Shown here: positions 4,746-64,000 of the stretch, one piece after another
Position numbering within the stretch: position 1 is the first letter of the stretch
How the letters are laid out: every line of letters starts with the position of its first letter
Source of the DNA: Membranipora membranacea
Lineage: Eukaryota; Bryozoa; Gymnolaemata; Cheilostomatida; Membraniporidae
Direction of reading: 5' to 3'
Length of the DNA: 64,000 nt
Assembly: GCA_914767715.1 (NCBI GenBank)
Contig: OU612074.1
Span: 18,338,062-18,402,061, forward strand
Program-made: the position numbers and the translations under genes
Notes under the pieces: model-generated
Database searches by the model: none
Seen by the model: only the letters and a program-made list of their open reading frames with translations
Told to the model about the DNA's origin: nothing

Positions 4746-4799
4746 AGAAGGCCTGTACATTGTTTTAATTAAGTTTTGACATGAGACTTCCAGTTTAGT

Positions 4800-7439: not shown

Positions 7440-9009
7440 TGGTCAAGGATTTTTATAATTTATTAAAAGCTAGTTTTTTCATGTGAGGTACATCAAATTA
7501 TGAGTATCATCATCATATAAGGTTTGAACATCAAATAAGATCAAGGATTAATATATTGCGGCGGATATGAAGACAAACCTCTGAAGTTTCTGATATACGT
7601 TGCCAGTAATTGGTTAAAAAAAATATATGTTTGAATCTCGAGGTTTCATCACTCACCGCATTTTGAAGAAAGGGTGGCGAGATAGGGGTGCCTAAGGTTT
7701 GTAGGCAGGTCGGAACACACCTGAGGATCCAACAATCCCCAGGTGTCAGTGGACTAGTAGTAATCCTTGGGTGCTTGGTTTGATATGACTCACGCTAGAT
7801 ATAAGCATAAAATGACAGCTTAATGTGTCAATTGAGCACTGTTTGGATACTGAATTTCTGAGTGAGAAAGTCAGTGCTTTTATTTGGTGGTTGTTGTTAC
7901 TGTACCAGGATTTATGAATCAACAAAGGTATTATAGAAAAAGCTACAAAACAGAGCTTGATAGTGTCACAATATATGAGAGTTGTTTCATGCAGACAATG
8001 AGACCCAAAAACAAGGCTATCATAACAGGGTCATCGAGCTGTTTTGCTGTTTTGCTGTTTTGTGGAAATGTAAATATAAGGTTAATAATATTATCTAATA
8101 AAACAAATGGTTGTTTACAGTGCTGTTTGCCATCTATCTGGGCTCCAAAATGATCACCATCACGTAGGTCATAGAGGAGATTAGCTTAAAGAGTAGGCTG
8201 ACATGTTTCAGCAAGGTGTTCTGTTCTGTGTTACCATAAAATTCACTCAATTCGTTAAGTTTGCCAAATTTAATTGAAGATTTTTACCTGGTAGAAATTA
8301 AAGATTCCCAAAGTAAAAAATGCCAACATCATCTTTAGCTTGTTCATCCTACCAACAGTACTTAGTATTCAGATTAATTTTGTTTATTATACATTGACAT
8401 ACATTTGGGCTGTCTGATGCATTATGGATTTTTGATTGCTGTAGCTGGTGGCTGTAATGAGAATAAATAAATGTCTACTACAAATTCAATAGAGCCATTA
8501 CCAATGGAAGATACTACAGCTAAGTGAATAAACATGGAGAATGGATTATCAACTGGAGTGCCAGCATATAGCGTCCCCAATTAAAAACTATCATCACTGA
8601 ACTGTGAATAAGCATACATTTTGGCACAGCTACCCTGACAACTTCCCTAAAAAACCAAACAAGTTACCGCAGCTTTTTCACCAGAGGGGTGATAGGGTTT
8701 CCGTTTTTTTCGATTTTTTCTTATCAAAGATAGTAATTATGCAATATGCTTTACCATTTTAATTTATCTTTATTCTCAAGTTATTTTTTTTCCTTTTCCT
8801 TTTTTTTTTACTTTTATTTGGAAAACCCTCCGCTACTGGAATGAAATAGACTGCCAATAAAAGTGTTAAAAAAAGCAAACTGTTGTAGGGTATCCTTGCA
8901 TGTGTTGATTTTTATGATACAGGTAGAACAAACATCTGCGATGATTCCATTTGGATTCTAGTTGTTTGAAAGCGTGTCGGCAAGTGCCATACAAAAAGGT
9001 CCGCTTGGG
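7440..9009. other. No gene recognised; poly-T tracts
   Basis: AT-rich sequence with T-runs near 8760-8820 and a short CTGTTTTG repeat near 8037-8062. The open frame at 7884-8153 has no domain signal. Whether this stretch belongs to the inverted-repeat arm cannot be tested because its mirror would lie beyond 64000. Confidence 0.4.
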
Positions 9010-9965
9010 ATCAATTAAGATCAACTTTTATTAAAATATAACAAAACCAAATATCTGAATGCCCTGAGTCTGAATTTGCTGGAGCTTAGTTTCGTTAGAT
9101 CACAAAGTTGGCAAACACTATCGTTTCTTGTCATCAATACAAAACATTATCTAACGGTGGCACATATTTTATCATGGACATAAAAGTTATAAGCTCATTA
9201 TTTTGAAGTCTTAGTATCCTTCACACCTAACCAACTCAATCTCGGCGAAACTAAGAATTGAAACCTTTCCTAAACTAGATCGATTGAATATAGAACTATG
9301 TCTGCAACCGGGAAACTCCTTGCTTCAACTAACTAACGAATCCTCTTAGTTTGATTTGTCCAAAGATTTTCCTCTTGAAAGCACTAAATTTGGCTAGACA
9401 AAAGTATTTTGAACGAGATATGGCAAACCAGAGTTAAGTGAGCATGTCTGACCTATGCATTCAATGTCAGCCCAACAAATAAATACTGTCGATGCAGAAT
9501 TTGCCAACAGTGATTGGCAAAGTCAGTAAACCTGTGGTTTTATTATCTATTGATAGAGCTAAGCTGCTGATTGCACTGAAAGCAGTCATACATTGCATGT
9601 TTGAAATATTACATCCGTCGCTATGGCAGTTTCCCGTTGCCTAAATCTATTTATTTGTTTCAATTACATAAGGTCTGAGCAAGGCCTGTCATCACATTTT
9701 GTTATTTATGGGCCAGGATAGTATCTGAATCTCAGAACTCCTCATAATTGTTTTACTGCAGGCACACTACATCATTCCATCTGCAACTTTTTTGCAATGG
9801 TACTATGTTTGATCAGATATCTCTGAACATAAGCGATGATAATTTGCTGACTTTGCAAATCCTTAAGATTGTGATCCCGTCATAGGCACACGCACAATAG
9901 AACTGTGAAAGCATGACTCCAAGTTAAACCCATGTTTCAAAACTACAGGTTTTCAATGTGAGTCT

Positions 9966-10255
9966 CCTCTCTAACGATATCAGTTTGACGTTGTCGGACA
10001 CTGATGATGATCTCTAGTCTAGTTTCGCCCTGACACTGAATGCTTATGTCAAGAGGCCACCATCAAATTGATTTCAGCTTGATGTCTGACGTCAATGTAG
10101 TATCTCGTCTAAAGAGGCCCAAATACTGAAAACTTATGCCAAGATGCTGACGCCAAATTGACGTCAGTTTGATGTCCGGCGCTGATGTTGATATCTTATC
10201 AGGAGTGTCCCCAATACTAACAAGTTATGTCAAGATGTCAGTTCGACGTTGATTA
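9966..10255. repeat. Degenerate tandem repeat, about 97 bp period, three units
   Basis: Three diverged units share the landmarks GATATCTYRTC, then AATACTGAAAACTTATGCCAAGA, shown here only in part, then TTGACGTCAGTTTGATGTC. Units begin near 9999, 10095 and 10191. The mirror copy lies at about 62755-63044 in the right arm. The rest of 9010-12343 is AT-rich without recognisable genes. Confidence 0.6.
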
Positions 10256-12343
10256 TTAATGTCCCAAAATCACCCAAATATTTGATGAAATAGCCAGGAA
10301 CTCACTCTGGCTTATTAATTTTTTTTTATTACAGTTTGTATTTTGAAAATATAATTAAGATAGACCCATTTAGTTGTATATTGAATCACACAATTTTGGT
10401 AAGAATATATTCTATTTTGCTTTATTTAGTTTACATAGCCATACCTTAAGGACCTAACAAAAATATGGTATTATGCTTTAAAATTGCTTGTGTCACAACT
10501 AATGTAACACAAATTGTGTTGAAACTGTCAAGTGTTGATCATCAAATATTTTGCTGTATAATGTTTGCATTTCCTGGTTATGAATGCCATCATGAATTAG
10601 TAATCTTTGTGCATAATTAGCCATAAATGGAATCAAAATGGGTCTATTAAAACAATGATTTGGTTGTATTACTAATGGAAGTGATTGTCTTTATCTGCTT
10701 AAGTCTTGAATATAGTCCTGAGACTTGAGTAGTTAGGACGGGTGGTTCAGCAGTATACACCCCCTCTTTCAGAGTCAGCTTTAATTGCATGGTGATAGCA
10801 CTCATCAATAGATTCTCACTGTACAGAAATATATAACAATACAAATACACATAAAACACAAACATAAATACAACAATGTTAAGATTTAAAATTTGGTAGA
10901 TTAGCTTGAGAAAACACTAGGTATTTGACACCTTTTAGTTTACGAGGCAGGAATGATATTTTGATACCCGTTAGCTTCACCAATAAACTTAATAATAAAT
11001 AAGGGAAGGCCACAATACGAAGAATACGTGAGTAACGTTACGACATTGTGTATAGCATTGGTGATATCATTGACTTCAAGTCCATATACCGGTTTTTACT
11101 AAAAACTCAATCAAAATGATCGGATTTTAAGTGAGAAAATTGCAAAATATTTTGCCGCTTGTTGCAAAAAATTATCATAGAAAAGCAGGATAAGATTGAG
11201 GAAAGGATGTTGCTATATATAAAGAAATTTTCAAACTGAAAATCAATTCATCAACAAAACTGCAAATCAAAGAAAGCATCATTGCTATAACACAATCCAA
11301 CACTGTAACATCAACCCCTCTATTTAACTGTATATAGGGTCTTGCCCATGTTCATTCTTATTAAGTCTATGGTTTCACCATTTATGGTTTCATCACACAA
11401 GTTGAATTTGCCATTTCTGGCAATTTGACACAGGAATCTTCTAACTCATCACTTGTAACTATGACTGAATGTTCATTCCTACTGTTTTATGTGTTTTCTG
11501 ACTATCATCAGTGTTTTTAATTATGATTTTTGCAGAGGCTTTATCTCAGCTCATCATAATCAACCCATGTGTCATTATCTCGGAAAGAAGATAAGAAGAT
11601 GGGCAATGGCCCTGCAGAGAAGGTTAGACCTGCCCTCATTGGGCTGTACAATATGTTTATATGCGGCATAGATTACAGCCCAAGATTTAGCAGATACTCT
11701 GCAGAGATTGTTAATTAATATCAGGGTGTTTCTCTCCCACAAATAGAATCACTCATGGTAACTCAACACCAGACAGCAGACCCCACACTCTCCTCTGGAT
11801 AGCTTGATGTAGGTGGAATTCCTTCCGCTTGAATATAGGTAAATCACGTGGTCAACTAGTTGATGTTACACGTTAGTGCCAAATAATCATACATATTTAC
11901 CCAAATTAAGAAAAAAAATTGTTCTTACAATCAATCAATTATCTTAATTTAACTGTGTACTATATATAGTTGCAGAGATAGAAGTTTAATAAGCTTTAAA
12001 TTGTGGGATTTAAATCAAAGAACTAATTTTTTTTTCTCCCGTTGCTTGTGCATGAAACAAAATGATCACTTATAGTCAAAACTCATAATAAGATTTAATT
12101 TATGATATTTGGCAAAATTTGAGCTTTCTTGCATCATATTGTACGTACTAGCTGTACTTTTAATTAAATGATATCATAATATTTTCTTTTACTTAGTGTG
12201 CTAATAATTTCCATAGGCTTTGAATGCTTTAATTTTTGTATGATATACTTATTTATACTTGATTTTGAGTGGAGAGTTGATATTGATATTCAATAAGGGG
12301 AGAAAGGACATGTTTTCATGAGCTTGCAGCTTAACTATAAATT

Positions 12344-25256
<12,913 letters not shown>

Positions 25257-25539
25257 CTAAATAGATATAAATGATGACTTTATGCAATCACAAGCTCTTC
25301 TCAAGTGTTACCAACACCGTGAAACAAGTTGCATACAACCAATGATTTACAAAGTGTACCATTGACTCTCTGTTCACCTCCTATCGCAGGATAACAAAGA
25401 TTGGATAGTTCATAATATGAACCTATGTTTTCTTACAAGAATCTCTACATGAGATGATTTGCTATCACTAGGGGGAAAAGAGAAATCTGAGATCAGTAGA
25501 GTAATTTTGTTGAATTTCGGCACAATATAATATACATTA

Positions 25540-25616
25540 TTATTACATATATATATAAATACAAATATGGGCAATATACATATATAATATACATAATATA
25601 TATATATATATATATT
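25540..25616. repeat. AT-rich microsatellite
   Basis: Runs of (AT)n interrupted by AC/AG steps. The mirror lies at about 42747-42825 and differs in repeat count. It may be part of the promoter-proximal region of the receptor gene. Confidence 0.7.
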
Positions 25617-25732
25617 CATTCACACATATTTGAGCAGAAGTAAATAACACAGGAATATAATGATACAAATTGGTGGAACAGCCGCTGTGAACGAATAAGC
25701 TTTCGTCGGGTCTGAACTATACCAAGTTTGGT

Positions 25733-25828
25733 CCATTTGCCTGCATTCGGAGTTGCCCCCGATCCACCGGTCACGCCGCAGCAGCAATGTGACTGGTGAA
25801 AGGGAGGAACTGGATTGCAGGCAAATGG
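25733..25828. repeat. 96-nt imperfect hairpin upstream of receptor gene (left)
   Basis: CCATTTGCCTGCA at 25733 pairs with TGCAGGCAAATGG ending at 25828. The inner arms also pair with interruptions (GGAGTTGCCCCCGATCCACCGGTCAC against its counterpart), leaving a loop around GCAGCAGCAA. The mirror copy at 42536-42631 differs by few bases. It is GC-rich in an AT-rich setting. It could be a foldback element remnant or a hairpin RNA. Confidence 0.6.
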
Positions 25829-26099
25829 ATGAAACTAGATCTATGTCTGATTACGTCTTAAATTGGTATGTTAATACTTTAGATATGTAGAACACCTGAT
25901 CACACAAGTCAATTTATCAGCGTGTGCGCATGTGTGGTGATCAGAAAGTATAATTGTGGCCAAAACGATTAAATCATCTGTTTAATCATATTATTACAAG
26001 AAAGATATGTCACGGTGAAGGGTTTTTAACCCATAATTTAATCTGAGCAGTTGTTATTATAAATTTTAAATAAGTCTTATTTTTCTTCACAAGTGACCC

Positions 26100-28010
26100 T
26101 AAGGCAAAATGTGAGCTACACAGAGTTACGTGCCACTTGGCCCTACCAGGTCAATCGATTCTTTTTGACATAGGCAGCCTGCAAATATATGCTGTTTGTT
26201 GGCAGATTGCTGCTGTGTGCTGTAAGTCTAGGTCTCGATAAGTCTTCTGATATCACCTGTCATCCCTGGCAAATGTTGTGTCAGTCTGAGGAGATTGGAA
26301 GCTTGTATCCCTGCTGCTGGCTTGCTGGTTGCCTGTGTTGTTGCCTGGTGAACTCATTGGCAAGTTAGCTGGCTCCATCAAGCCTGGCCCGACTTGGTCT
26401 TGAACTTATCGCTCAATCTTCTTGTCTCTCTCCAACACCAGCTTTTGGGAGGCCTGTTTGATAGGCCGGGTCCCAAGCATGGTTGGGTTTTGTGTGGGTA
26501 ACTAGCTGTAATCTTCTCTGTTGTATGGATATTGTGGTCTCCCTCACTATATATGCCTAGGTACCTGCTGATCTGCTGTGTGAAATCCTGTTTCGGTTAA
26601 GCTTAAGTTTTGCATGGTGGAGTAGAGATAGATAGCACATGAGTTAGTACATGTGGCTCAATACCAACTTGGCATTGGACATGGTTTGGGTGCACAGAGG
26701 CCTGTAGCTCACAGCCGTCTGAAGTATGATCTTTTGAGATATGTTCCTTATTCTACATGATGGAAAGTCCTATGCTTGTTTCCTGGTCGTATGAGACAGC
26801 AGCAGAGTGAGGGTGATACAGTCAATGTTGTCCCTTTTTTGCTATCCAGGTCTTGACCACACACGGTGCTATCCTTAATCTGATTTGACTTAGATTTGAT
26901 CTTTGTCACCTTGGCGTTCTAGACACCCATGTCTCCTGCAGGGAGTTGTGAGATACGACAGGTTGGCTGATAATCTGAGTTAGTATACAAGTGTGTTTGG
27001 TGATCTGAACTTTAGCACTCAGATTAGCGCCATATATGTTCTTACAAGCACTTTCCTTGGATTCCTTGTCCCACTAGAAATTCGCATTCACTGCCTGAAA
27101 AAATCTCATGACTCTGATGGCATCTACTGTCACATTGGCTCCTCTGAATGAGACTCGATTACTCCTTAAGCAACTGATTAGCAAGGTGCCATGATTCTGG
27201 TTGTTCAACGAGTTGAAATAGTCACTTGTTTAGAATTTGAATTTACTACAACCTGGGTTGACTTTTGACTTGTGTTCTAGCTTACTCTGCCGTGAAACAA
27301 TATTTTCTTAGGGCGAGCTGGAGAGTTAGTCTTATGAATCTGTGTCAGTATCTGAGGAAATATCTGAGCCTGGTAAATGTGGAAACTGGTTTGCATGGTG
27401 ACCAGGCATTCTGTTGCTTTATATCAGAGTATACAGATAGCTGAAAAGATTTGGTCTGTATCAGTCATCTGTTCAACATGAGTTGTCCGTTCTGCTGCTG
27501 GTTAAAATCACCTCCTTCCCTCCTCTGCATCTCTGAAAATGCCGATGGTGGGTTATTAGTTTCACGGAGGAATTCTACCGATAGCCGACATAAATAGTTT
27601 GTCATTGGAGCGGAAAGCAGGTGCTGGTGATAACTAACATGGTCAAGAACTCCTTTCAGTGTCGGTAAATCCATGTCGTATTTAAAATTTTCTGTCTTGG
27701 TCTGTAGAATCTTTATTCATTAGTCTGGTGATCTCTGCTCCATATTCACCATTGATATTAAATTTATCCCGGGCCTGCTTGACTGTGTGTCTGAATCGGC
27801 TCCTCATGCTGTCAAAGATATCTCCCAGCGTGCATACAAGACTGGTATCTGTTGCAACACCCTCTGAGCTAGCTCATAGGTGGATTGTGGCTTCCTCTAA
27901 ACTCCATCTGATTCAGTTATGTCTCACAACTTTAATATGCGTGTTAGGTTTCAGGATACAGCACACACATAATATAACTCTGTAGGTCCCCCCCCCCAAC
28001 TTTTCCATTG
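26100..28010. mobile_element. Unclassified GC-richer repeat-like region (left)
   Basis: Base composition and short open stretches differ from the surroundings. On the strand reading away from the spacer's left (minus) there are broken coding-like pieces such as GDIFDSMRSRFRHTVKQAR and MDLPTLKGVLDHVSYHQHL with stops between them. I could not match them to a family. A degenerate transposon gene is the most likely reading. The mirror lies at 40560-42260. Confidence 0.3.
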
Positions 28011-28249
28011 TTCACCTCTATTAGCCATCGTTCGTTTCATCAATCACCAAGCAGACCAGACAAGATTACAAATTCTAGTTAAGTTATCTGGTGGGATTGT
28101 TGTTGTGTGAGGGCAATCACGACACAAACGAGGATTAGTGTTATCCTGAGGGCCAACACGACACACACAAGGATTAGTGGTTTTTGAAAAGGAACTTTAC
28201 TTGTCTTTTCTATACTAATACAATAAAGGAGAAAGCAATCATTACATCA

Positions 28250-28567
28250 AATTTTGCAGTTCTGGATGGCCACTAAGACTGGCGCTGGCGACGAGTGTTG
28301 AGAAACATGTGGTAGGTGTTATATAGGACATGTCTTACGACAGCCACGTGTTATTGGTCCTGTAAAGCATGGGCCGCATGAGGGTTTATACCATGTCTAC
28401 TACGGCACCTGCCAAAGGTCTCACAACACCTGAGTGGTGGATCGGACCAAGTACCTAAAATATGTCACAGCGCGCAACAACATGGGCTGTACCAACAAAC
28501 CCTCTTTTTATGATTTCATTCATAAAACTGGCTACTGCCAACACAGAACTTGACTTTTTCCGTAATG
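28250..28567. mobile_element. Short dispersed repeat, second family member (left)
   Basis: Shares the ordered blocks CGCTGGCGACG, AGTACCTAAAATATG, CAACATGGGCTG, TTCATAAAACTGGCTA and GACTTTTTCCGTAATG with the insert in the TSP1 exon at 17330-17604. The mirror lies at about 39997-40314. Two non-mirror copies per arm define it as a repeat family. Confidence 0.6.
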
Positions 28568-28847
28568 GTGGTAGGCCTAGGATGTAGGTTGGTTGCATTG
28601 CATTCTAGACTTCCATGTGACAGTAAAAATGATGTGCCACAGCAGTGGCCTAATGACATGTATGAGGCTAAGAACCTTTTTCTCTTGCTAACTTCGGTAT
28701 GTACTGGTCATATATATATAAGACCCACTGGCTTGCAAACCCAAAACCCAGGTAACAGGAGTTTCACAATCATGCTGGTTTGTAGACTGGGCAGGCTGTC
28801 AGGGTGGGTGTTAGGCCCCCCACCTACTACCAACAGCCTGCCCAAGC

Positions 28848-29106
28848 TACCTGATTTACATACCTACTAGTAATATAGTATAGAAAAAAGAAATTAAATC
28901 TTACCTCCTATCATGAACGAGCTGGCTATGGCAGAGACGGCCAGTAAGCAAAACATTTTATTAGAGTGTTCCTCAACCGTACCTAAGAACAACAATGAGC
29001 TGATTCTTGACTTAACATTAACGCAATGCAAAATCAGTCATTTAAGTTTTAGTACTAGCATCTTTTATTATCACTTTATCGCATACTACAGCGATATTAG
29101 TTACCT
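28848..29106. other. 258-bp segment present only in left arm
   Basis: The right arm reads straight from CCCAAGCT to GAATTAGTGG where the left arm has 258 extra bases. The ends share only CT (or the longer ACCTGA inside the left copy). Either a left insertion or a right deletion at microhomology would fit. No terminal repeats are visible. Confidence 0.7.
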
Positions 29107-29123
29107 GAATTAGTGGTTGGTGT

Positions 29124-29458
29124 CATGGGCGTCAGAAGGATTTACCAAGGGGTGCTCCTTTTGGCTGTGGAGTAATTAGTGGCATGTGTAAGCGGGGAGG
29201 GGCGCCCAAGCGCCCTCCTGCCGACGGAATTTTTTTGAAATTCTAGACCCAAAAGAGACATTCTGGTACATACAAGCCAACTTTTATGGATGAGCAACAC
29301 CAAGCATGATACCAAAAATATTTAACAGCAACAGCCTCTTGCCCGGGCCCCGATTGAAAGTTCTAGCGATAAACTAAAACATTGAGTAAAAAAAAAAAAA
29401 TTAAACCTCCCAAGGGGTGCTCCCTTGAGCACTCTGAGCACCCCTTCTGACGCTCATG
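29124..29458. mobile_element. hAT-like MITE, 335 bp (left)
   Basis: Inverted ends CATGGGCGTCAGAAGG at 29124 and CCTTCTGACGCTCATG ending at 29458 are flanked by the 8-bp direct repeat GTTGGTGT (29116-29123 and 29459-29466). It has no coding capacity and an internal A-tract. The mirror at 39362-39698 is slightly longer because of the A-tract. Confidence 0.8.
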
Positions 29459-30038
29459 GTTGGTGTGCTGGTGAATGCGTACTGGACAAAATCTCAATCT
29501 GACTTGTGGTATTGTGGTCGATTCTCCGCCACAGCTGGACAGTCTTAATTCAATTTCACTAAATTCATGTTTCATGAGTTGTCTTCGCTTAAAGAGGACT
29601 CATCATTTTAGTAACTTTTCTAAATTTATATTTTAAAAACCAACCCTGTAGTGTTTCCATAGCCAGTGTTTTTACAAACCTATGGAAATTTCCACTGCGT
29701 GCCGGTATCATACTACAGAATCAAATCCCCCCTCCCATTGCACCACTGTGGCCATTGACCTGAATTCCAGTCCAGTTATCTTCCCAGCTATCTTGCACAG
29801 ATAGTTGTAACCCAGAGCCATTCCTGCCCCCCTTTAATTTGCCGAATAAATAAGGTGATATTCCCCTTTTGTGTAACCAGTGAACACTTGATTCCTTTCA
29901 TCAAAAAATCTAAAATAGTAATTTATATTTAAACTCATTTATGAAGTTTTATCAATCACTTGCATTATATTCAATTCGATAAAATATTTTATTTTCTAAG
30001 TATTGTTTTTATAAATAGAGTTTGATGCAAAGGGCATA

Positions 30039-32671
30039 GTCCAGAAGACACCAACAGTTAGCTTTCAGTTTACTTTAACGGCTTGGGGGCAAGAATTTGA
30101 CAGTGTTTACACGTGTAGATAGGTTGTCTAAATACTATGACATAGTTTCTACACCTCTCAGTTTGCCAGTTTGGGAGAAAATCAGTTTTTTAACTCAAAA
30201 ATGTGGGAGGAGATAAATCCTAATAATTGCCCATGGAATCCCACTATTTTGCCTTAGAATACCAAAATATTCCCATTTAATCCATTTTAAGCTCAGTTTA
30301 AAAGGAATTGGAGCAAGATTGTAAATGTTACAGCAGGGTGAAATGTTATGAGACATGGTACAATTTTGACTCAAAGTCAATTTAAGTCAGCAAATGTATA
30401 TCCAGAGAGATTTGAGTGCATCTTAGAAAGAGTTTAAAAGGCTGCAGCCACTAAATTCAATCCAATACAGGGAATTATAGTGGATATGCTATGACCTCTT
30501 AATCAACCATTGCTATAAGAGTTTGCAGTTTGGTTTGTGAGAGGGCTGAATTGAGAGAAGCTGGCAAAAGAAGAAGCAGCTACTGGGGCTTCAAGGGTAA
30601 AACTTTCAACCACTTGCATTACTCCTTGGTTATAATGAAACCACCACATTCCACACTTGTAGACATAATTCATTCACCTTATAGCTGGCAAAATAACCCA
30701 GATGCTATCAAAATCTTTCGGTAATGTTATTTGTATTGGTATAATTGACCTAATCATTCTGTTCTGTCTGATGATCGGAGGCTATGAACTAGGCCACATG
30801 TCTGCTTCTCAAGACCCAAAGTTACCCAATACCGCCTCGCAACATCTCAAAAGCCCTCAAGACTGCATGCAGGCTTTGCACGATATTATATTTGCACAGC
30901 TGCTGTGATTGGTGTTTTTTAGCCTGTCTTGACAAGCCACCCTCCCCCCCCCCACCTGATTTTGAGGACTTGACACAGCGCCTTTCAATAAGAAATAATC
31001 CTTTGTGATGGGTACACATTTTTGTGTGGGGGTGACCATCCGATAGTGATGGCAACTGGGGTGTAGGGGAGGCAACTGGAAATTTCACAGACATGAATTT
31101 AATATATATAGCTGAGATTCTAGTATTGATCATTTCTTAGGTAGCAACTCTGCTCCAGCAGCTGTTTCATGTGATTGAGATTCAAAGGCCAACAATGTAT
31201 TCTAGTTCAGATAATACACCTGGTTATCTATTTTTTCCCACCCAGTGCCTCAGCGGTTGAGGATGGGATATCTACGCACAGTGTTAGAAGTGGAAATATG
31301 AGGTAGGGGGATGCCAACCAGGCCGGGGGTCCAGGGGGCCGCCTATGCCTTGGCTGGGTAGTGGGCGGAGTCCTGGCCGCCGGAGCCCTGAGTTGATTAC
31401 AATTGAAAATGCATCAAATTTAGCCATATTTTGGAAAACTCATATTTATGTACTTGCCAGCTGGTGGTTACCTGGGTTATGATATAAAGGGGGGATGCAT
31501 CCCCCTAGACGTAGGAAGGAAGGGGGACACCATCCCCTTACATCTCCCTAAATTCTAACACCATCTACGCATAAACATGTCAATGAGACCTTCACACTAT
31601 CACTCATTAGTTGTTCAGTTTATCAGGTTTATTAGCCTATTTCTCTGGTCTAAATATTTACAGAATAAGTCAGAGCGGCTAAAAGTCTGAGATCGCGAGA
31701 ACTATCAGAGCCCTGCGCTTATTATTCAAAAGACGTCACCAAGAAGGGAAACAATTTTTATAATATGAATAGAGAGAGACTGAATGTGATTAGAATAATT
31801 TCAATCGAAACAACAAGAAGCGTTATGACATGTGCTATTCAGGCTTACCATACAGAATAAAATCTTTCTCTAATTTTCCTTCTTGGTGATATTATAAATT
31901 TTCATAGGGAAGACAAAGTTACGGTATGGTAATCCGATTTGACTCATTCTGATTCTTCTCTTCTGTTCAGACATTAGCCAATGTCACTGAATACATTATA
32001 TCCACTGACTCTAAGTTAAGTTACAAAATCTTCTCTGGGCGTTGTTCAACACGGCTGTCAGAGGCAATCAGCCCCATCTAATTTATATTGTGCGAGCTGA
32101 AATTGGTTGGATGCACGCCGTAGTGGTTTTCAAACAAAGCAATATATGTAGTATCTAGGTATATATACAGTATATTTACAGTATATATACAGTATATATA
32201 CTGTATATATACAGTATATATACAGTATATATACAGTATATATACACTATGTATATTATAATATCATGGCTCGAACGGTGAGGTTTCAAATCAACAGGCA
32301 AAACAATGGGATTGTATAGCAATAATTAGAGTTATCCCCTCCATTTTTTTTAATTTAAAAAATTTAATTTCTCTTTAACTGACAATCTTAGAGGTGTAGA
32401 ACTAAGACATAATATTGACACAACCTATCTTCACATATTAATGCTGCCAAATTGTTGCCCACTTCAGTTATAATGAACTGAACGATAGCTTTTCGTTAAT
32501 TCAGGACTATAACCCTGGATAACTTTCTAACTGGCAGACTGAGAGGTGTAGAAACCAGATATTTGAAATCAGCATAAAATTCTGATTTAGAAAAATTTAA
32601 TCCCATATTGCCCCCATTTCGTTAAAGTAAACACTTTTTTTTGAGCACTTATAGCTAGGTGTCTTCTGGAC
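30039..32671. mobile_element. Spacer segment bounded by diverged inverted repeats
   Basis: 30039-30172 and 32529-32671 are imperfect inverted copies. They share CCAGAAGACACC, TTTACTTTAACG, GGGGCAA, TTCTACACCTCTCAGT and TGCCAGTT in mirrored order. The left copy starts at the exact base where arm homology ends. No transposase is recognised in between. Coding-like signals are absent apart from short chance frames. Confidence 0.55.
32155..32250. repeat. TATATACAG microsatellite with internal palindromes
   Basis: Repeats of TATATACAG, switching orientation once to TATATACTG, make the tract self-complementary (ACAGTATATATACTGT). Such tracts are prone to slippage and cruciforms. Confidence 0.85.
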
Positions 32672-33289
32672 TAGCAGCGATGAGGCCGATTTTCTATTTT
32701 GCTATTTGTATTTTTGAAATGACTATAATGCACAGTGAGCTTGCTCAACAATAATCTTGTAAGCTGAGACCAAAACCTAGAATTTGCAGGGCAAACACCC
32801 CAATAATAACATCAGCTATAAGTTACAACCGTGCTGCCATTCAGTACAAGTTACATTCTCAATATACATGAACAGACAACTCAGCAAACAAATCCCCAGT
32901 TTGCTCAACAACATAGTAAAGCAACACATTCAGTTCTTATCACCAGCTGAAAGTACTGAATTAATTTCGTGGTGAAAATGAAACGCCAGCAGAGTAATCC
33001 TTGTCAAACTAGACTACTTACAACTGTTCTCTGTTGTAGTCACGGTACTCAATTGATAGAAACGATATATGGAGACCGCCGCTCACTCTCATATCGATCA
33101 AACCATCTCCAGTAAGTATATTTATCTGTAAGAAACCAATATCACGCATCTACAGGTATTTATAAATCTATAAACCGTTTTAAATTTAAATATCCATTTA
33201 CATTTAACATTCACTAAGCAACCTGGGTTATGATCCTTGGAAGTAATGTATTCGAAAGCAATAGGCCTATAGATAAATTAAAAAACCTC

Positions 33290-34055
33290 TGGTCAGCAAC
33301 TAAAGGCAAAGGCATCTGAAGATTTAAGTGGCATTTTGGATTGGTGCAATCGTAACCGGATGGTTATAAATGTTCAGAAATCTCATTACATGCTACTTAA
33401 TATCTCAGATCCGCTTTATGACCTGGAACTGTACATAGGGCATGAAAAACTAAACAGACAGAGAACTACAAGGCTTCTGGGTTTTGTGTTGAATGACTCG
33501 CTTTTATGGCAGGATCATCTAGAGTATGTATATAAAAAGGTACAACGGAATGTTTACCTACTTCAAAATTTGAGATACTTCTTGGATATAGCAAGTGCCC
33601 GCACATTTTACTTCCAGTTTATCTATTGTCACCTTATATATGGTATCCATATCATTGGCAACTTGTCCTGCAATAATGCCCTCAATAGATTATTTTTGTT
33701 GCAAAAACGGGCTTTACGCATTATCGCCAATGTGCATTACATCCCGTATTATCTCATTTCAACCGAATCCATTACACAATCATTACAACTCCTACCTCTT
33801 CCTAAGCTCGTTTGTTATTTCACTTCACTTTTTGCGCATAAGATAAACAATTTTTTAACACCTCCAGTTATATATAGAGGATTTAAAAACACTACCAAGT
33901 TCAATTTTCGTGATAAACATTTACTTTTATATCATACAGACAATCTAAGATACAAAGTTTCTGCTACATACAATTCTTTACCGTTACATTTGAGATCTAA
34001 AGAGAAGTTCAGCTCATTCAAAACTTTACTTTTCAACAATATATTATCGACTTGA
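33290..34055 (+). pseudogene. 5'-truncated LINE, reverse transcriptase C-terminal part
   Basis: About 250 codons are open to a stop at 34053. They contain DWCNRNRMVINVQKSHYML, RLLGFVLNDSLLWQDH and LLQKRALRIIANVHY, the thumb and C-terminal region of jockey/CR1/L2-type non-LTR retrotransposon enzymes. The palm with the YADD box is missing, so it was 5'-truncated on insertion or deleted. It ends with SSFKTLLFNNILST, as these ORFs typically do. It lies on the opposite strand to the other spacer LINE. Confidence 0.75.
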
Positions 34056-34634
34056 CCAACATCATTGATGATATTATTTCCCTTCTGTTTCTCTTTTTTT
34101 GTTATAAAAAAAATTGTTTTCTGGCACTGAGTGCAAAACATTTCAAATGAGATGACTTTCGATGCCAATAAAAAGTATATATGAATACTCTACATCATAG
34201 TCAAATCATTATTGTTGCAACACTTTCAGCTTTCTGGAGGAGCAGGCAACAGAAGGAGGATTGTGCATCCCAAAACTTATAGCACCTGATATGGTAGGTT
34301 TGAAAGATCACGGTTCGATTTGGCAAACAAAACATTCACCAACTTACTCCAAACTTAAATATTGGAATGATAGGCCTATGCAGAATTCATGAAGGCATAT
34401 TGTTTATTTTACCCCTTGTAATAGAACAGACAGACAGAATAGAACTAGAACTAGCTAGGAAAACAGCATCCATATTTTGAACTCCCTAAAGGAAGTCTTT
34501 CCAAAGCATTTTATCATCTTTATGTGGCAAGTGTATGACCAACATCTGCATTTTAGTGTAACTGACAGGGAATGCAATGTGTATATATCACTCTTGTTAG
34601 CAACTTATTTTTATATTTACTTTTGTTAATTCAG

Positions 34635-34921
34635 GTGATAGTAAAAAGCCCTCCAGATGGACACTGCTTGATACACAGCATAATCACCACACTGGGAGGG
34701 TGCGTCAGTTATTATATAAAACAGATGAGACTGCATTTTGATGCTGTGTATAATGAATATGCGGAGTTCCTCCCCGGCTTGACCCAAGAAGATGCTCTGC
34801 TAAAACTAAAAAGGTACGAGGAGCAAGGGGAACATGATGACGATGTATTAGATCTAGCGACTACAATGCTAGCAAATGCCATAAGCATTGTTATAGTAAT
34901 TTCACAGCCATGCATTTACTA
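34635..34921 (+). pseudogene. OTU-like cysteine protease fragment
   Basis: After an acceptor TTAATTCAG the frame encodes VIVKSPPDGHCLIHSIITTLG, matching the OTU catalytic start (P-x-D-G-x-C-L-x-x-x-I) with Asp and nucleophile Cys present. About 95 residues follow, ending ANAISIVIVISQPCIY and a stop. The catalytic His at the C-terminal end of the domain is absent. The TTTG tract and LINE begin a few bases later, so the LINE probably cut the domain off. OTU domains occur in host deubiquitinases and in several invertebrate transposons. Which source applies here is open. Confidence 0.55.
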
Positions 34922-34926
34922 ATCCT

Positions 34927-37080: not shown

Positions 37081-38781
37081 GAGAACAACATCATTAATTA
37101 AAACACAAGCATGTTTGTTATAAAGCCATTCTATCATCAGACTGTCGATAATCTAAACTATACTATACTATACTAAATAAAATATCTTAAAACACATTTG
37201 AATTTTGCAGATTTGAATCTTTGAATTTGATGTGGATCTTGAAAGTATTTGTCGAAATGAAAATCTTATGCAAATATGGCAAACATAAGGCTGCGACGCA
37301 GTGAGTGTTCTATCTCAATTCTTTATGATGGTAGGCATTGACAGAGGATTCCTACCACTACTACTCAGAAGTAATATACAAGGGCTCTGTTTTGAGTGAT
37401 CCCTTGCGCTCTATCCAGCTCGTTCTACGCATGTCATGATTGACGTATCAATAGCTAGCTGTATCTATCCTACAATCAGATGTTTAAGATGTAAGATGTT
37501 CAAAGTTTTATTGGTCAGCAGATCCCTATAAATAAATTTACATGACGTGTCTATGAGAATTCTATAATGATCTAGTCAACGGGATCAAAGTTTTTGGGAG
37601 TACAAACAACATAATAAGGGGAAGTTTTCTCACTATCACTTACAATACAATAAATAGGTAAGCCACTACCTACCTACAACATACGATTGCTTGGTTATAT
37701 ATATATCTAGTAGTTATAGTCCAGTTACTTATTTTCAGTAGTAGTGAGTAAGTAAGTAGAGTATCAGTAAGTTACAGAAAAGTCAGTCAGTACTCAGTTA
37801 GTTAGAACGAGCACATGGACTGCTGCATTTCCTATCTTAAGTTAAGAGAGTTGGGATATGCGGCAGTTCTATGACACAACACTAACTGTAACTAACAGTG
37901 AGTATCAATATATAAATATATATATATATAAATATATATCATGAATTATTAAAATTACATTCCCAATTAATAAATAAATGAATAAATATAATCTAATGGC
38001 CTATCTATACTAAAAGGTATCGGTAAATCTGAGTATGCGACTCTGAAAATACTTAAACGACTACCTGACACTTGTTGATACTGAATTGGAAGACTCTACC
38101 TGTAGCATCATCCATAGTCTACCCTATAGAGTATTATGCAGTTGTTTTACGGAACTTCATGAAAGCTCATTCATCAAATGGGATGACAATGCCTGATTGG
38201 CTTGGTAGGATTTAGCCAACCAATGAAAATGATTTGACAAATTTCCGCATTTTAGTCATTTCATCGTAACACTGAGAAACACGCGTGCTAACGCGTACTT
38301 TCAAGAGAAATTCCGCATTTCCGCATTATAGTGAACCCCATTGTTTCCTGATTATGTTGCTAATAGTTGGACAATTACAGTTAGTAAAAGGTCAGTCAAC
38401 CTTATCCATGGAACAATAGTGTTTTGAATAAACTTTCGGACGGACGGACAGACACAAAGGATGGATTATGATTGTTTGTGTTAGTCATGATTTGATTGTA
38501 TAGGAAGGAGCAGCTTATGGTGAATCACAGCTTGTAAGGGCACCAGTGTTATTTATGTGTATTAATCTGCAGCTGCTGGACTCTTTGGCAGTCGCTTCAA
38601 AGAGCTGCAAATTCTGTTTCATTTTGGGTACTGTTATGTTGTAGCTTTACATAATTCATGTTTGCATGTATCTCAATTCTAACGGTACCTGAGCGACCAT
38701 CGCTTGAACATTGTCAACCTCCTCATATTCCTGGCATCTGCAGACTTTGTGATACTCTGTGCTCAAACAATTTTTTCACAG
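37081..38781. other. Spacer, no gene recognised
   Basis: AT-rich sequence with short simple repeats (near 37905-37945 and GTAAGTAAGTAG near 37750). Homology to the left arm begins only at 38782. Confidence 0.5.
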
Positions 38782-39361
38782 TATGCCCTTTGCATCAAAC
38801 TCTATTTATAAAAACAATACTTAGAAAATAAAATATTTTATCGAATTGAATATAATGCAAGTGATTGATAAAACTTCATAAATGAGTTTAAATATAACTT
38901 ACTATTTTAGATTTTTTGATGAAAGGAATCAAGTGTTCACTGGTTACACAAAAGGGGAATATCACCTTATTTATTCGGCAAATTTAAGGGGGGCAGGAAT
39001 GGCTCTGGGTTACAACTATCTGTGCAAGATAGCTGGGAAGATAACTGGACTGGAATTCAGGTCAATGGCCACAGTGGTGCAATGGGAGGGGGGATTTGAT
39101 TCTGTAGTATGATACCGGCACGCAGTGGAAATTTCCATAGGTTTGTAAAAACACTGGCTATGGAAACACTACAGGGTTGGTTTTTAAAATATAAATTTAG
39201 AAAAGTTACTAAAATGATGAGTCCTCTTTAAGCGAAGACAACTCATGAAACATGAATTTAGTGAAATTGAATTAAAACTGTCCAGCTGTGGCGGAGAATC
39301 GACCACAATACCACAAGTCAGATTGAAATTTTGTCCAGTACGCATTCACCAGCACACCAAC

Positions 39362-39698
39362 CATGAGCGTCAGAAGGGGTGCTCAGAGTGCTCAAGGGAG
39401 CACCCCTTGGGAGGTTTAATTTTTTTTTTTTTTTACTCAATGTTTTAGTTTATCGCTAGAACTTTCAATCGGGGCCCGGGCAAGAGGCTGTTGCTGTTAA
39501 ATATTTTTGGTATCATGCTTGGTGTTGCTCATCCATAAAAGTTGGCTTGTATGTACCAGAATGTCTCTTTTGGGTCTAGAATTTCAAAAAAATTCCGTCG
39601 GCAGGAGGGCGCTTGGGCGCCCCTCCCCGATTACACATGCCACTAATTACTCCACAGCTAAAAGGAGCACCCCTTGGTAAATCCTTCTGACGCCCATG
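39362..39698. mobile_element. hAT-like MITE (right, mirror copy)
   Basis: Mirror of 29124-29458 with the same CATGAGCGTCAGAAGG/CCTTCTGACGCCCATG ends. Being shared at the same place, it inserted before the arms duplicated. Confidence 0.8.
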
Positions 39699-39996
39699 AC
39701 ACCAACCACTAATTCAGCTTGGGCAGGCTGTTGGTAGTAGGTGGGGGGGGGGCCTAACACCCACCCTGACAGCCTGCCCAGTCTACAAACCAGCATGATT
39801 GTGAAACTCCTGTTACCTGGGTTTTGGGTTTGCAAGCCAGTGGGTCTTATATATATATGACCAGTACATACCAAAGTTAGCAAGAGAAAAAGGTTCTTAG
39901 CCTCATACATGTCATTAGGCCACTGCTGTGGCACATCATTTTTACTGTCACATGGAAGTCTAGAATGCAATGCAACCAACCTTCATCCTAGGCCTA

Positions 39997-40314
39997 CCAC
40001 CATTACGGAAAAAGTCAAGTTCTGTGTTGGCAGTAGCCAGTTTTATGAATGAAATCATAAAAAGAGGGTTTGTTGGTACAGCCCATGTTGTTGTGTGCTG
40101 TGACATATTTTAGGTACTTGGTCCGATCCACCACTTAGGTGTTGTGAGACCTTTGGCAGGTGCCGTAGTAGACATGGTATAAACCCTCATGCGGCCCATG
40201 CTTTACAGGACCAATAACACGTGGCTGTCGTAAGACATGTCCTAGATAACACCTACCACATGTTTCTCAACACTCGTCGCCAGCGCCAGTCTTAGTGGCC
40301 ATCCAGAACTGCAA
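39997..40314. mobile_element. Short dispersed repeat (right, mirror copy)
   Basis: Mirror of 28250-28567, same family as the insert in the split TSP1 exon. Confidence 0.55.
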
Positions 40315-40559
40315 AATTTGATGTAATGATTGCTTTCTCCTTTATTGTATTAGTATAGAAAAGACAAGTAAAGTTCCTATTCAAAAACCACTAATCCTTG
40401 TGTGTGTCGTGTTGGCCCTCAGGATAACACTAATCCTCGTTTGTGTCGTGATTGCCCTCACACAACAACAATCCCACCAGATAACTTAACTAGAATTTGT
40501 AATCTTGTCTGGTCTGCTTGGTGATTGATGAAACGAACGATGGCTAATAGAGGTGAACA

Positions 40560-42260
40560 ATGGAAAAGTTGGGGGGGGACCTACAGAGTTATATTATGTG
40601 TGTGCTGTATCCTGAAACCTAACACGCATATTAAAGTTGTGAGACATAACTGAATCAGATGGAGTTTAGAGGAAGCCACAATCCACCTATGAGCTAGCTC
40701 AGAGGGTGTTGCAACAGATACCAGTCTTGTATGCACGCTGGGAGATATCTTTGACAGCATGAGGAGCCGATTCAGACACACAGTCAAGCAGGCCCGGGAT
40801 AAATTTAATATCAATGGTGAATATGGAGCAGAGATCACCAGACTAATGAATAAAGATTCTACAGACCAAGACAGAAAATTTTAAATACGACATGGATTTA
40901 CCGACACTGAAAGGAGTTCTTGACCATGTTAGTTATCACCAGCACCTGCTTTCCGCTCCAATGACAAACTATTTATGTCGGCTATCGGTAGAATTCCTCC
41001 GTGAAACTAATAACCCACCATCGGCATTTTCAGAGATGCAGAGGAGGGAAGGAGGTGATTTTAACCAGCAGCAGAACGGACAACTCATGTTGAACAGATG
41101 ACTGATACAGACCAAATCTTTTCAGCTATCTGTATACTCTGATATAAAGCAACAGAATGCCTGGTCACCATGCAAACCAGTTTCCACATTTACCAGGCTC
41201 AGATATTTCCTCAGATACTGACACAGATTCATAAGACTAACTCTCCAGCTCGCCCTAAGAAAATATTGTTTCACGGCAGAGTAATCTGAGTGCTAAAGTT
41301 CCAAGGAAGCAAGTGCTTGTAAGAACATATATGGCGCTAATCTGAGTGCTAAAGTTCAGATCACCAAACACACTTGTATACTAACTCAGATTATCAGCAA
41401 ACCTGTCGTATCTCACAACTCCCTGCAGGAGACATGGGTGTCTAGAACGCCAAGGTGACAAAGATCAAATCTAAGTCAAATCAGATTAAGGATAGCACCG
41501 TGTGTGGTCAAGACCTGGATAGCAAAAAAAGGACAACATTGACTGTATCACCCTCACTCTGCTGCTGTCTCATACGACCAGGAAACAAGCATAGGACTTT
41601 CCATCATGTAGAATAAGGAACATATCTCAAAAGATCATACTTCAGACGGCTGTGAGCTACAGGCCTCTGTGCACCCAAACCATGTCCAATGCCAAGTTGG
41701 TATTGAGCCACATGTACTAACTCATGTGCTATCTATCTCTACTCCACCATGCAAAACTTAAGCTTAACCGAAACAGGATTTCACACAGCAGATCAGCAGG
41801 TACCTAGGCATATATAGTGAGGGAGACCACAATATCCATACAACAGAGAAGATTACAGCTAGTTACCCACACAAAACCCAACCATGCTTGGGACCCGGCC
41901 TATCAAACAGGCCTCCCAAAACCAGGTGTTGGAGAGAGACAAGAAGATTGAGCGATAAGTTCAAGACCAAGTCGGGCCAGGCTTGATGGAGCCAGCTAAC
42001 TTGCCAATGAGTTCACCAGGCAACAACACAGGCAACCAGCAAGCCAGCAGCAGGGATACAAGCTTCCAATCGCCTCAGACTGACACAACATTTGCCAGGG
42101 ATGACAGGTGATATCAGAAGACTTATCGAGACCTAGACTTACAGCACACAGCAGCACTCTGCCAACAAACAGCATATATTTGCAGGCTGCCTATGTCAAA
42201 AAGAATCGATTGACCTGGTAGGGCCGAGTGGCACGTAACTCTGTGTAGCTCACATTTTGC
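40560..42260. mobile_element. Unclassified GC-richer repeat-like region (right)
   Basis: Mirror of 26100-28010. Contains the deletion scar at 41282-41357. Open pieces at 40892-41101 and 40735-40884 are shared with the left arm and broken by the same stops. Family not recognised. Confidence 0.3.
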
Positions 42261-42535
42261 CTTAGGGTCACTTGTGAAGAAAAATAAGACTTATTTAAAA
42301 TTTATAATAACAACTGCTCAGATTAAATTATGGGTTAAAAACCCTTCACCGTGACATACCTTTCTTGTAATAATATGATTAAACAGATGATTTAATCGTT
42401 TTGGCCACAATTATACTTCCTGATCACCACACATGCACACACGCTGATAAATTGACTTGTGTGATCAGGTGTTCTACATATCTAAAGTATTAACATACCA
42501 ATTTAAGACGTAATCAGACATAGATCTAGTTTCAT

Positions 42536-42631
42536 CCATTTGCCTGCAATCCAGTTCCTCCCTTCCACCAGTCACATTGCTGCTGCGGCGTGACCGGTGG
42601 ATCGGGGGCAACTCCGAATGCAGGCAAATGG
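42536..42631. repeat. 96-nt imperfect hairpin upstream of receptor gene (right)
   Basis: Mirror of 25733-25828. Stem ends CCATTTGCCTGCA and TGCAGGCAAATGG are unchanged between arms. It lies about 475 bp upstream of the first mapped receptor exon in both arms. Confidence 0.6.
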
Positions 42632-43105
42632 ACCAAACTTGGTATAGTTCAGACCCGACGAAAGCTTATTCGTTCACAGTGGCTGTTCCACCAATTTGTA
42701 TCATTATATTCCTGTGTTATTTACTTCTGCTCAAATATGTGTGAATGAATATATATATATATATATTATGTATATTATATATGTATATTGCCCATATTTG
42801 TATTTATATATATATGTATCAATAATGTATATTATATTGTGCCGAAATTCAACAAAATTACTCTACTGATCTCAGATTTCTCTTTTCCCCCTAGTGATAG
42901 CATATCATCTCATGTAGAGATTCTTGTAAGAAAACATAGGTTCATATTATGAACTATCCAATCTTTGTTATCCTGCGATAGGAGGTGAACAGAGAGTCAA
43001 TGGTACACTTTGTAAATCATTGGTTGTATGCAACTTGTTTCACGGTGTTGGTAACACTTGAGAAGAGCTTGTGATTGCATAAAGTCATCATTTATATCTA
43101 TTTAG

Positions 43106-60640
<17,535 letters not shown>

Positions 60641-63600
60641 AATTTATAGTTAAGCTGCGAGCTCGAGAAAACATGTCCTTTCTCCCCCTTATTATATATC
60701 AATATCAACTCTCCACTCAAAATCAAGTATAAATAAGTATATCATACAAAAATTAAAGCATTCAAAGCCTATGGAAATTATTAGCACACTAAGTAAAAGA
60801 AAATATTATGATATCATTTAATTAAAAGTACAGCTAGTACGTACAATATGATGCAAGAAAGCTCAAATTTTGCCAAATATCATAAATTAAATCATATTAT
60901 GAGTTTTGACATTTTGTTTCATGCACAAGCAACGGGAGAAAAAAAAATTAGTTCTTTGATTTAAATCCCACAATTTAAAGCTTATTAAACTTCTATCTCT
61001 GCAACTATATATAGTACACAGTTAAATTAAGATAATTGATTGATTGTAAGAACAATTTTTTTTCTTAATTTGGGTAAATATGTATGATTATTTGGCACTA
61101 ACGTGTAACATCAACTAGTTGGCCACGTGATTTACCTATATTCAAGCGGAAGGAATTCCACCTACATCAAGCTAACCACAGGAGAGTGTGGGGTCTGGTG
61201 TCTGGTGTTGAGTTACCATGAATGATTATATTTGTGGGAGAGAAACACCCTGATATTGATCAACAATCTCTGCAGAGCATCTGCTAAATCTTCGGCTGTA
61301 ATCTATGCCGCATATAGACATATTGTGCAGCCCAATGAGGGCAGGTCTAACCTTCTCTGCTGGGCCATTGCCCATCTTCTTATCTTCTTTCCGAGATAAT
61401 GACACATGGGTTGATTATGACGAGCTGAGATTATGCCTCTGTAAAAATCATAATTAAAAACACTGATAATAGTCAGAAAACACATAAAACAGGAGGAATG
61501 AACAATCAGTCATAGTTACGAGCGATGAATTAGAAGATTCCTGTGTCAAATTGCCAGAAATGGCAAATTCAACTTGTGTGATGAAACCATAGGTGGTGAA
61601 ACCATAGACTTAATAATAATGAACCTGGGCAAGACACTATATACAGTTAAATAGAGGGGGTGATGTTACAGTGTTGGATTGTGTCATAGCAATGATGCTT
61701 TCTTTGATTTGCAGTTTTGTTGCTAAATTGATCAATTTTGATCAGATTTTCAGTTTGAAAATCTTTATATTTAGCAACATCTTTTCATCAATCTTATCCT
61801 GCTTTTCTACGATAATTTTTTGCAACAAGCGGCAAAATATGTTGCAATTTTCTCACTTAAAATCCGATCATTTTGATTGAGTTTTCAGTGAAAACCGGTA
61901 TATGGACTGGAAGTCAATGATATCACCAATGCTATACACAATGTCGTAACGTTACTCACAGTGCTTATTCTTCGTATTGTGTCCTGCCTAAGTTTGTTAT
62001 TAAGTTAATTGGTGAAGATTACGGGTATTAAAATATCATTCCTGTTTGTTAAACTAAAAGGTGTCAAATACCTAGTGTTTTCTCAAGCTAATCTACCAAA
62101 TTTTAAATTTTAACATTGTTGTGTTTATGTTTGTGTTTTATGTGTATGTGTATTTATTTATGTATTTCTTTATAATTTTTGTACAGTGAGAATCTATTGA
62201 TGAGTGCTATCACCATGCAAATAAAGCTGACTCTGAAAGAGGGGGTGTATACTGCTGAACCACCTGTCTTAACTACTCAAGACTCAGGACTATATTCAAG
62301 ACTTAAGCAGATAAAGACAATCACTTCCATTAGTAATACAACTGGATCATTGTTTTAATAGACCCATTTTGATTCCATTTATGGCTAATTATGCACAAAG
62401 ATTACTAATTCATGATGGCATTCATAACCAGGAAATGCAAACATTATACAGCAAAATATTAGATGATCAACACTTGACAGTTTCAACACTTGTACACAAT
62501 TTATGTTACATTAGTTGTGACACAAGCAATTTTAAAGCATAATACCATATTTTTGTTAGGCCCTTAAGGTATGGCTATGTAAACTAAATAAAGCAAAATA
62601 GAATATATTCTTGCCAAAACTGTGTGATTCAATATACAATTAAATGGGTCTATCTTAATTATATTTTCAAAATACAAACTGTAATAAAAAAAGTTAATAA
62701 GCCAGAGTGAATTCCTGGCTATTTCATCAACTATTTGGGTGATTTTGGGACATCAATAATCAATGTCAAACCGACATCTTGACACAACTTGTTAGTATTG
62801 GGGACACTCCTGATAAGATATCAACATCAGCGCCGGACATCAAACTGACGTCAATTCGGCGTCAGCATCTTTGCATAAGTTTTCAGTATTTGGGCCTCTT
62901 TAGACGAGATACTACATCGACGTCAGACATCAAGCTGAAATCAATTTGATGGCGGCCTCTTGACATAAGCATTCAGTATCAGGGCGAAACTAGACTAGAG
63001 ATCATCATCAGTGTCCGACATCAAACCGATATCGTTAGGGAGGAGACTCACATCGAAAACCTGTAGTTTTGAAACATTGGTTTAACTTGGAGTCATGTTT
63101 TCACAGTTCTATTGTGCATGTGCCTATGACGGGATTACAATCTTAAGGATTTGCAAAGTCAGCAAATTATCATCGCTTATGTTCAGAGATATCTGATCAA
63201 ACATAGTACCATTGCAAAAAAGTTGCAGATGGTATGATGTAGTGCGCCTGCAGTAAAACAATTATGAGGAGTTCTGAGATTCAGATACTATCCTGGCCCA
63301 TAAATAACAAAATGTGATGACAGGCCTTGCTCAGACCATATGGAATTGGAACAAATAAATAAATGTAGGCAGCGGGAAACTGCCATAGCGACCGGATGTA
63401 ATATTTCAAACATGCAATGTATGACTGCTTTCAGTGCAATCAGCAGCTTAGCTCTATCAATAGATAATAAAACCACAGGTTTACTGACTTTGCCAATCAC
63501 TGTTGGCAAATTCTGCATCGACAGTATTTATTTGTTGGGCTGACATTGAATGCATAGGTCAGACATGCTCACTTAACTCTGGTTTGCCATATCTCGTTCA

Positions 63601-64000
63601 AAATACTTTTGTCTAGCCAATTTTAGTGCTTTCAAGAGGAAAATCTTTGGACAAATCTATCTAAGAGGATTCGTCAGTTAGTTGAAGCAAGGAGTTTCCC
63701 GGTTGCAGACATAGTTCTATATTCAATCGATCTAGTTTAGGAAAGGTTTCAATTCTTAGTTTCGCCGAGATTGAGTTGGTTAGGTGTGAAGGATACTAAG
63801 ACTTCAAAATAATGAGCTTATAACTTTTATGTCCATGATAGAATATGTGCCACCGTTAGATAATGTTTTGTATTGATGACAAGAAACGATAGTGTTTGCC
63901 AACTTTGTGATCTAACGAAACTAAGCTCCAGCAAATTCAGACTCAGGGCATTCAGATATTTGGTTTTGTTATATTTTAATAAAAGTTGATCTTAATTGAT
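60641..64000. other. Outer right arm, no gene recognised
   Basis: Mirror of 9010-12343. Holds the approximately 97-bp degenerate tandem repeat at 62755-63044 and AT-rich sequence. A possible short exon (MSAITMQIKLTLKEGVYTAE, about 62197-62280) is shared with the left arm but lacks support. Confidence 0.5.

Follow-up and report, generated by a model that had tools for sequence, protein, structure and literature searches.

An inverted duplication within a three-copy, receptor-like gene cluster of Membranipora membranacea, with inner arms probably homogenised by gene conversion

A window of 64,000 nucleotides from the genome of the bryozoan Membranipora membranacea carries an inverted duplication of 21 kb that appears to belong to a three-copy cluster of alternating orientation, and the inner 10 kb of its arms have probably been homogenised by arm-to-arm gene conversion. 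The two arms are most alike in the half that adjoins the spacer, and it is this same half that differs most from a third copy lying outside the window. An alternating trio of this kind, with two mirror axes and a built-in outgroup copy, makes conversion separable from mutation rate within a single genome, because the same stretch is most alike in one pair of copies and least alike in the other. The case for conversion comes from one genome of one species. If conversion recurs at this locus, chromosome architecture would be tied to how a predicted receptor gene diversifies or becomes uniform. A first-pass annotation of the window had recognised the repeat and is upheld in part; it had missed the third copy, the pseudogene-like state of arm B and the step in divergence within the arms.

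Results

The inverted repeat and its surroundings

When sequence flanking the window is included in the comparison, arm A (8980-30038) and arm B (38782-64030) are 97.0% identical over 19,130 aligned bases. Comparison of the window with itself by BLASTN returned eight minus-strand blocks, all of them collinear (Table 1), and the E value was printed as 0 for each of the eight, greatly exceeding chance; a chance match was ruled out for arms of 21 kb that are mostly 95-99% alike. As assembled, one molecule holds two long arms in opposite orientation with sharp edges, the inner edge at 30038/38782 being sharp to the base. The outer limit at 9010/64000 is the edge of the window, and with the flanks added contiguous homology extends only to 8980/64030. 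Beyond it a further piece (8687-8924/66177-66429) aligns at 84% between A and B, and arm A may continue in pieces past 8980. The stretch 8687-8924 also matches the third copy, C, at 89810-90061 with 85% identity.

Homology from 9010/64000 to 30038/38782 had been described as continuous. The blocks are indeed collinear and the inner edge is sharp, but the alignment is broken by two B-only inserts (Table 1) and by stretches of 206 bp and 258 bp missing from B. The companion claim, that substitutions and indels separate the arms and that these are not a simple fold-back, is borne out, since both kinds of difference were found and the two ends of the spacer are unlike; a fold-back read artefact was ruled out on these grounds.

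Table 1. Coordinates of the arms, alignment blocks, predicted exons and inserts (window numbering)
Feature	Position	Strand	Remarks
Arm A	8980..30038	minus (gene)	copy A of receptor-like gene, 5' end facing spacer
Arm B	38782..64000 in window	plus (gene)	inverted copy; homology to A stops at 64030, beyond window
Spacer	30039..38781		8,743 bp; two sides unlike
Block 1	9010-12648/64000-60334		95.0%
Block 2	12636-14274/56732-55112		94.1%
Block 3	14333-15935/55114-53523		85%, repeat stalk
Block 4	16470-18479/53566-51558		95.2%
Block 5	18478-19199/49742-49021		92.5%
Block 6	19355-27061/48993-41300		98.7%
Block 7	27282-28848/41284-39716		99.2%
Block 8	29105-30038/39717-38782		99.1%
Candidate conversion tract	19737..30038 (arm A)		0.66% from B; outer limit in shared transposase remains
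Signal-peptide-like first exon	28903..28956	minus	start codon, donor AGGTAAGA; in A and C, deleted in B
Cysteine-rich exon	24452..24653	minus	2-bp frameshift in B
Two lectin-like exons	23855-23646 + 23091-22882	minus	weak joint Lectin_C match, below Pfam cut-off
First TSP1 exon of A	21705..21866	minus	Pfam TSP_1 22.8 bits against cut-off 21.6
TSP1 tandem array	15935..17329	minus	318-bp units with 171-bp TSP1 exons; 4 complete in A, 2 in B array
Thr/Gly-rich stalk	14777..15890	minus	12-bp-based repeat, open in A, B and C
Ser/Thr-rich exon	13279..14041	minus	donor AGGTATGT; acceptor not fixed
Transmembrane-like exon	12949..13057	minus	by eye; matches at 56318 (B), 96344 (C)
Transposase remains	18080..21016	plus	extent from ORFs; common to both arms
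Reverse-transcriptase ORF in spacer	35052-36569	minus	RVT_1 above cut-off
B-only insert	49743..51557	plus	reverse-transcriptase-like ORFs; RVT_1 27.6 bits, just under cut-off 29.6
B-only insert	56733..60333		3.6 kb, unclassified

The transposase remains shared by the arms, presumably piggyBac-like, match DDE_Tnp_1_7 at 19079-19522 in A and 49211-49789 in B, and are interrupted by a 655-bp genomic repeat (19916-20570) that has a copy in arm B. A 1,601-bp probe (19400-21000) was searched against the 339.3-Mb, 18-contig assembly, with 40 of 83 candidates scored and counts that are lower bounds; among the 42 matches listed, only A and B cover the probe in full, and the other 40 are confined to its positions 513-1180, the dispersed repeat. 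These 40 further matches to the 655-bp repeat are 91-95% identical, 38 of the 40 being over 600 bp.

The spacer also contains an inverted repeat (30087-30254 and 32296-32460), whose arms of about 165 bp share 77% identity and enclose an 11-bp tandem repeat (32159-32255). Left of arm A, an RNase H match just above the Pfam cut-off (3822-4768, minus) lies beside an ORF of reverse-transcriptase-like appearance with no Pfam match, and the two together are likely the remains of a retroelement. In the left flank, some 26.6 kb from -79799 to -53211 are made up of a 178-bp satellite whose shifted copies are 96-99% identical. In the right flank, the interval 71993-76846 between B and C holds direct repeats about 1.1 kb apart and about 94% alike, some of which match 121-122 kb as well. 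Searches with Rfam at gathering scores and with ARAGORN listed nothing.

A third copy and the layout of the cluster

Copy C lies beyond the window, at about 87303-113059 when the numbering is continued, on the minus strand, inverted to B and in the same direction as A. With A on the minus strand, B on the plus and C on the minus, A and B stand head to head and B and C tail to tail. Homology between B and C persists from 64083 to about 68.76 kb, a region whose counterpart in A is one piece of 0.25 kb. Exons of one predicted modular receptor were found in A, B and C, and when ten exon peptides were compared by TBLASTN with 264 kb of sequence (E up to 0.1), every listed match fell within the three copies; two of the ten peptides, N27 and X22, represent doubtful exons, and X22 hits a stop in C. 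As assembled, the trio forms a three-copy cluster of alternating orientation with two mirror axes.

The predicted receptor gene

Read on the minus strand of arm A, the predicted gene comprises in order a signal-peptide-like exon, a cysteine-rich exon, weakly lectin-like exons, TSP1 repeats, a Thr/Gly stalk, a Ser/Thr-rich exon and a transmembrane-like exon, the term receptor being a prediction from sequence. Candidate exons of A had to show an open frame and splice signals and to be conserved in C, and the selection was repeated without the conservation criterion; the openness of these exons is no separate test because they were chosen for being open. The signal peptide and the membrane span were judged by eye from the exons.

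The cysteine-rich exon, which from its cysteine spacing alone we take to be Ly6-like, had no match in a Pfam search, and when folded alone gave a mean pLDDT of 33.8, which is unusable. Joined, the lectin-like exons scored 15.1 bits against Lectin_C (cut-off 22.6, E 0.04) and are not assigned to the C-type lectins; PDB matches with E values as high as 10 included no lectin. Two of three TSP1 exons tested singly exceeded the Pfam cut-off, and three joined repeats reached 45.6 bits. Counted by a strict pattern with flanking AG and GT, the TSP1 exons number five in copy A, three in copy B and six in copy C. Omitted from these counts are degenerate pieces, which in A lie near 17.3 and 17.7 kb and in B near 52.3 and 52.7 kb, and a further one in C that contains a stop (101.4 kb). 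The totals for A and B include an exon that stands apart from the array, at 21864 in A and at 46491 in B; every TSP1 exon of these two copies except the first sits in the 318-bp tandem. Seven exons, namely the lectin-like pair and five TSP1 exons, are in phase 1 at both ends. The open frame of the stalk is weak proof of coding, because such repeats can be read without stops in several frames. For ORF 13253-14053 a cytoplasmic tail carrying a tyrosine motif was considered and dropped: with a donor at 13279 and the membrane-like exon coming next, at 13057, the exon of this ORF would lie outside the cell. A protein search with the joined exons returned 53 proteins, all with TSP_1 in the Pfam column and none with more than 50% query coverage; no relative of the whole architecture was among the 7,997 candidates scored, and a literature search on sponge TSP1/C-type-lectin receptors found no paper.

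The three copies differ in their state. B is without the 258 bp that hold the first exon and without the 206-bp stretch at 27.1 kb, and a 2-bp deletion shifts the frame of its cysteine-rich exon. Neither A nor C shows these deletions, and C has corresponding sequence at all three gaps, so that they are likely losses in B, in which one TSP1 cysteine is also substituted. B is probably a pseudogene, at any rate when read from the usual start. The ratio dN/dS is 0.64 for A/C (six exons pooled), and 0.70 for A/B and 0.59 for B/C (five exons each).

Divergence along the arms

In the inner part of the arms (19750-30038), 65 of the 9,805 bases aligned between A and B differ (0.66%), and in the outer part 286 of 7,449 (3.8%), a count that leaves out the stalk and TSP1 array at 14277-17400 (inner versus outer, Fisher p 5.6e-50). 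A likelihood scan placed the best single change point at 19737, within the transposase remains of both arms. The trend for A/C is the opposite, with 779 differences in 7,012 bases (11.1%) in the inner part and 269 in 3,957 (6.8%) in the outer; inner divergence is 5.8 times lower than outer divergence for A/B and 1.6 times higher for A/C. The tract of low divergence between A and B begins abruptly and has no corresponding fall against the outgroup copy C. Since the inner part shows the lowest divergence in A/B and the highest against C, a single profile of mutation rate fails, and arm-to-arm conversion fits.

Site patterns among the three copies follow the same division. Of 6,511 inner sites, A and B agree against C at 693, A and C against B at 15 and B and C against A at 20; in the same order, the counts are 128, 69 and 92 among 3,692 outer sites (54900-64030), and 144, 53 and 90 among 1,422 sites of the TSP1 array and stalk. 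The closest pair in the bin 61700-62699 is B/C. The outer part as a whole nevertheless appears close to a three-way star with no clear B/C pair, because A and B are the pair with the largest number of shared sites there (128, against 92 for B/C). GC bias is a usual but not a required mark of gene conversion, and none was seen at sites where A and B agree against C (269 to 271 in the inner part, 101 to 103 in the outer), sites that are not polarised.

Identity between B and C rises toward the B/C axis, being 80.9% at 39.7 kb and reaching 98.4% at 68.2 kb (Spearman 0.95 with position, 31 bins of 500 bp, the stalk region 52700-55100 left out). For A/B the correlation is 0.72 (36 bins), and the outward fall is uneven, the outermost kilobase (8980-9980) being 98.0% identical, higher than the neighbouring 95-96%. 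The gradients of A/C and B/C resemble each other, so that most of the gradient is likely older than the split of A and B; it could partly reflect rate or constraint along the gene.

Discussion

Origin of the duplication and of the step in divergence

The first-pass annotation had left a choice between a real inverted repeat, with diverged arms and head-to-head receptor-like genes, and two haplotypes joined tail to tail in assembly. If the assembly had joined both haplotypes of a single locus in opposite orientation as A and B, then their differences of 0.7-4%, their indels and their arm-specific transposons would find a ready source, for differences of this kind are allele-sized in highly variable animals. 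Haplotypes would, however, be expected to stay homologous outward past both arms, and here they do not: over about 100 kb the outer flanks share short scattered matches alone, with 19 hits (8 on the plus strand and 11 on the minus, the longest 269 bp) between flanks measuring 109 kb and 100 kb; one of these hits lies close to both arm ends. No N occurs in the 264 kb read, which comprise the window and 100 kb of flank on each side. The two ends of the spacer are unlike, B and C are homologous beyond 64030, where A matches by its short piece only, and the pattern is carried on by a third inverted copy. Given the flanks, the lack of N and the inverted copy C, we regard a haplotype join as very improbable. 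A real duplication, with matching exons in both arms, appears to be the better reading.

A real inverted duplication could have acquired its step at 19.7 kb without conversion, through an uneven mutation rate or selection. Divergence of A/C and B/C does vary along the gene and is maximal at the 5' end, and with the A/C dN/dS of 0.64 over six exons constraint may be uneven; this account is nonetheless highly unlikely, for A and B resemble each other most in the inner part, which is at the same time the most different from C. The step might instead be an allelic join, made either by a haplotype switch of the assembly near 19.7 kb in one arm or by a meiotic crossover with a differently arranged allele, which would have brought in a younger inner arm. 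One crossover or phase switch would likewise leave a single sharp boundary, but a second arrangement of the locus is required, of which no evidence was seen, and the boundary falls within the transposase remains of both arms, with no N there. Taking its two variants jointly, we consider an allelic join unlikely. Re-duplication of the inner part alone would be conversion by another name, because exact replacement of the old inner arm would be needed.

For the favoured reading, conversion between the arms of a real duplication, we infer an order of events and its timing, and the arms may have paired on the same chromatid, between sisters or between homologues. An older inverted pair would have consisted of C and the ancestor of A and B. 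A transposon would then have inserted into this ancestor, a second inverted duplication would have yielded A and B, and these would have diverged to about 4% before conversion of some 10.3 kb adjoining the spacer and its axis, followed by decay of B. A bolder extension, which we think improbable, is that the trio acts as a standing conversion machine, in which the decayed B would serve as a template that rewrites the 5', outward-facing half of A, and tail-to-tail pairing with C would govern the 3' half. Were this so, the genealogy of the gene would differ between its two ends in accordance with the two mirror axes.

Comparison with known systems

Large inverted duplicates that undergo conversion were found in print on sex chromosomes or as short gene pairs of worms. 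In Caenorhabditis, divergent or convergent pairs of homologous genes lie in long, nearly perfect inverted repeats, for which conversion has been proposed as one route of maintenance; one example has arms of 2,207 bp, a spacer of 126 bp and an identity of 99.7% (Zhao et al. 2007, PMC1803023). PMC3966223 also deals with inverted pairs of paralogues that undergo conversion in Caenorhabditis. The present locus differs from the worm pair of this example in its arms of 21-25 kb, its 8.7-kb spacer, its third copy and its mid-arm step.

Among the human Y palindromes, whose identity is given as above 99.9% (PMC3723533, PMC6790999), P6 is a large inverted repeat with a spacer and with multi-kilobase, GC-biased conversion tracts (PMC3723533), and P8 is an instance of arm loss and of a new palindrome arising nearby (PMC6790999). 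The present locus resembles P6, as there described, in being a large inverted repeat with a spacer and, we propose, a multi-kilobase conversion tract. It differs from the Y palindromes of these accounts in exceeding 99% in the inner half only, in showing no GC bias and in having one decayed gene copy; ampliconic palindromes of sex chromosomes carry germline genes and have arms more than 99% alike overall, and the overall identity here lies below that level.

The VCBP immune clusters of amphioxus, whose domains are Ig V and chitin binding, are described as containing many inverted repeats, pseudogenes, transposon-related inserts and uneven conversion (PMC2632668). The present locus is likewise an invertebrate cluster with inverted repeats, a probable pseudogene, inserts and, we propose, uneven conversion, and differs in its domains. 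That study compared haplotypes and corrected artefactual gene duplicates in its own assembly (PMC2632668), duplicates that stand as a caution here. A search of the literature on inverted, converting paralogue or immune clusters found no closer system among the titles and openings of abstracts that were listed. Inverted duplicates that convert are already known, and the locus described here adds another case.
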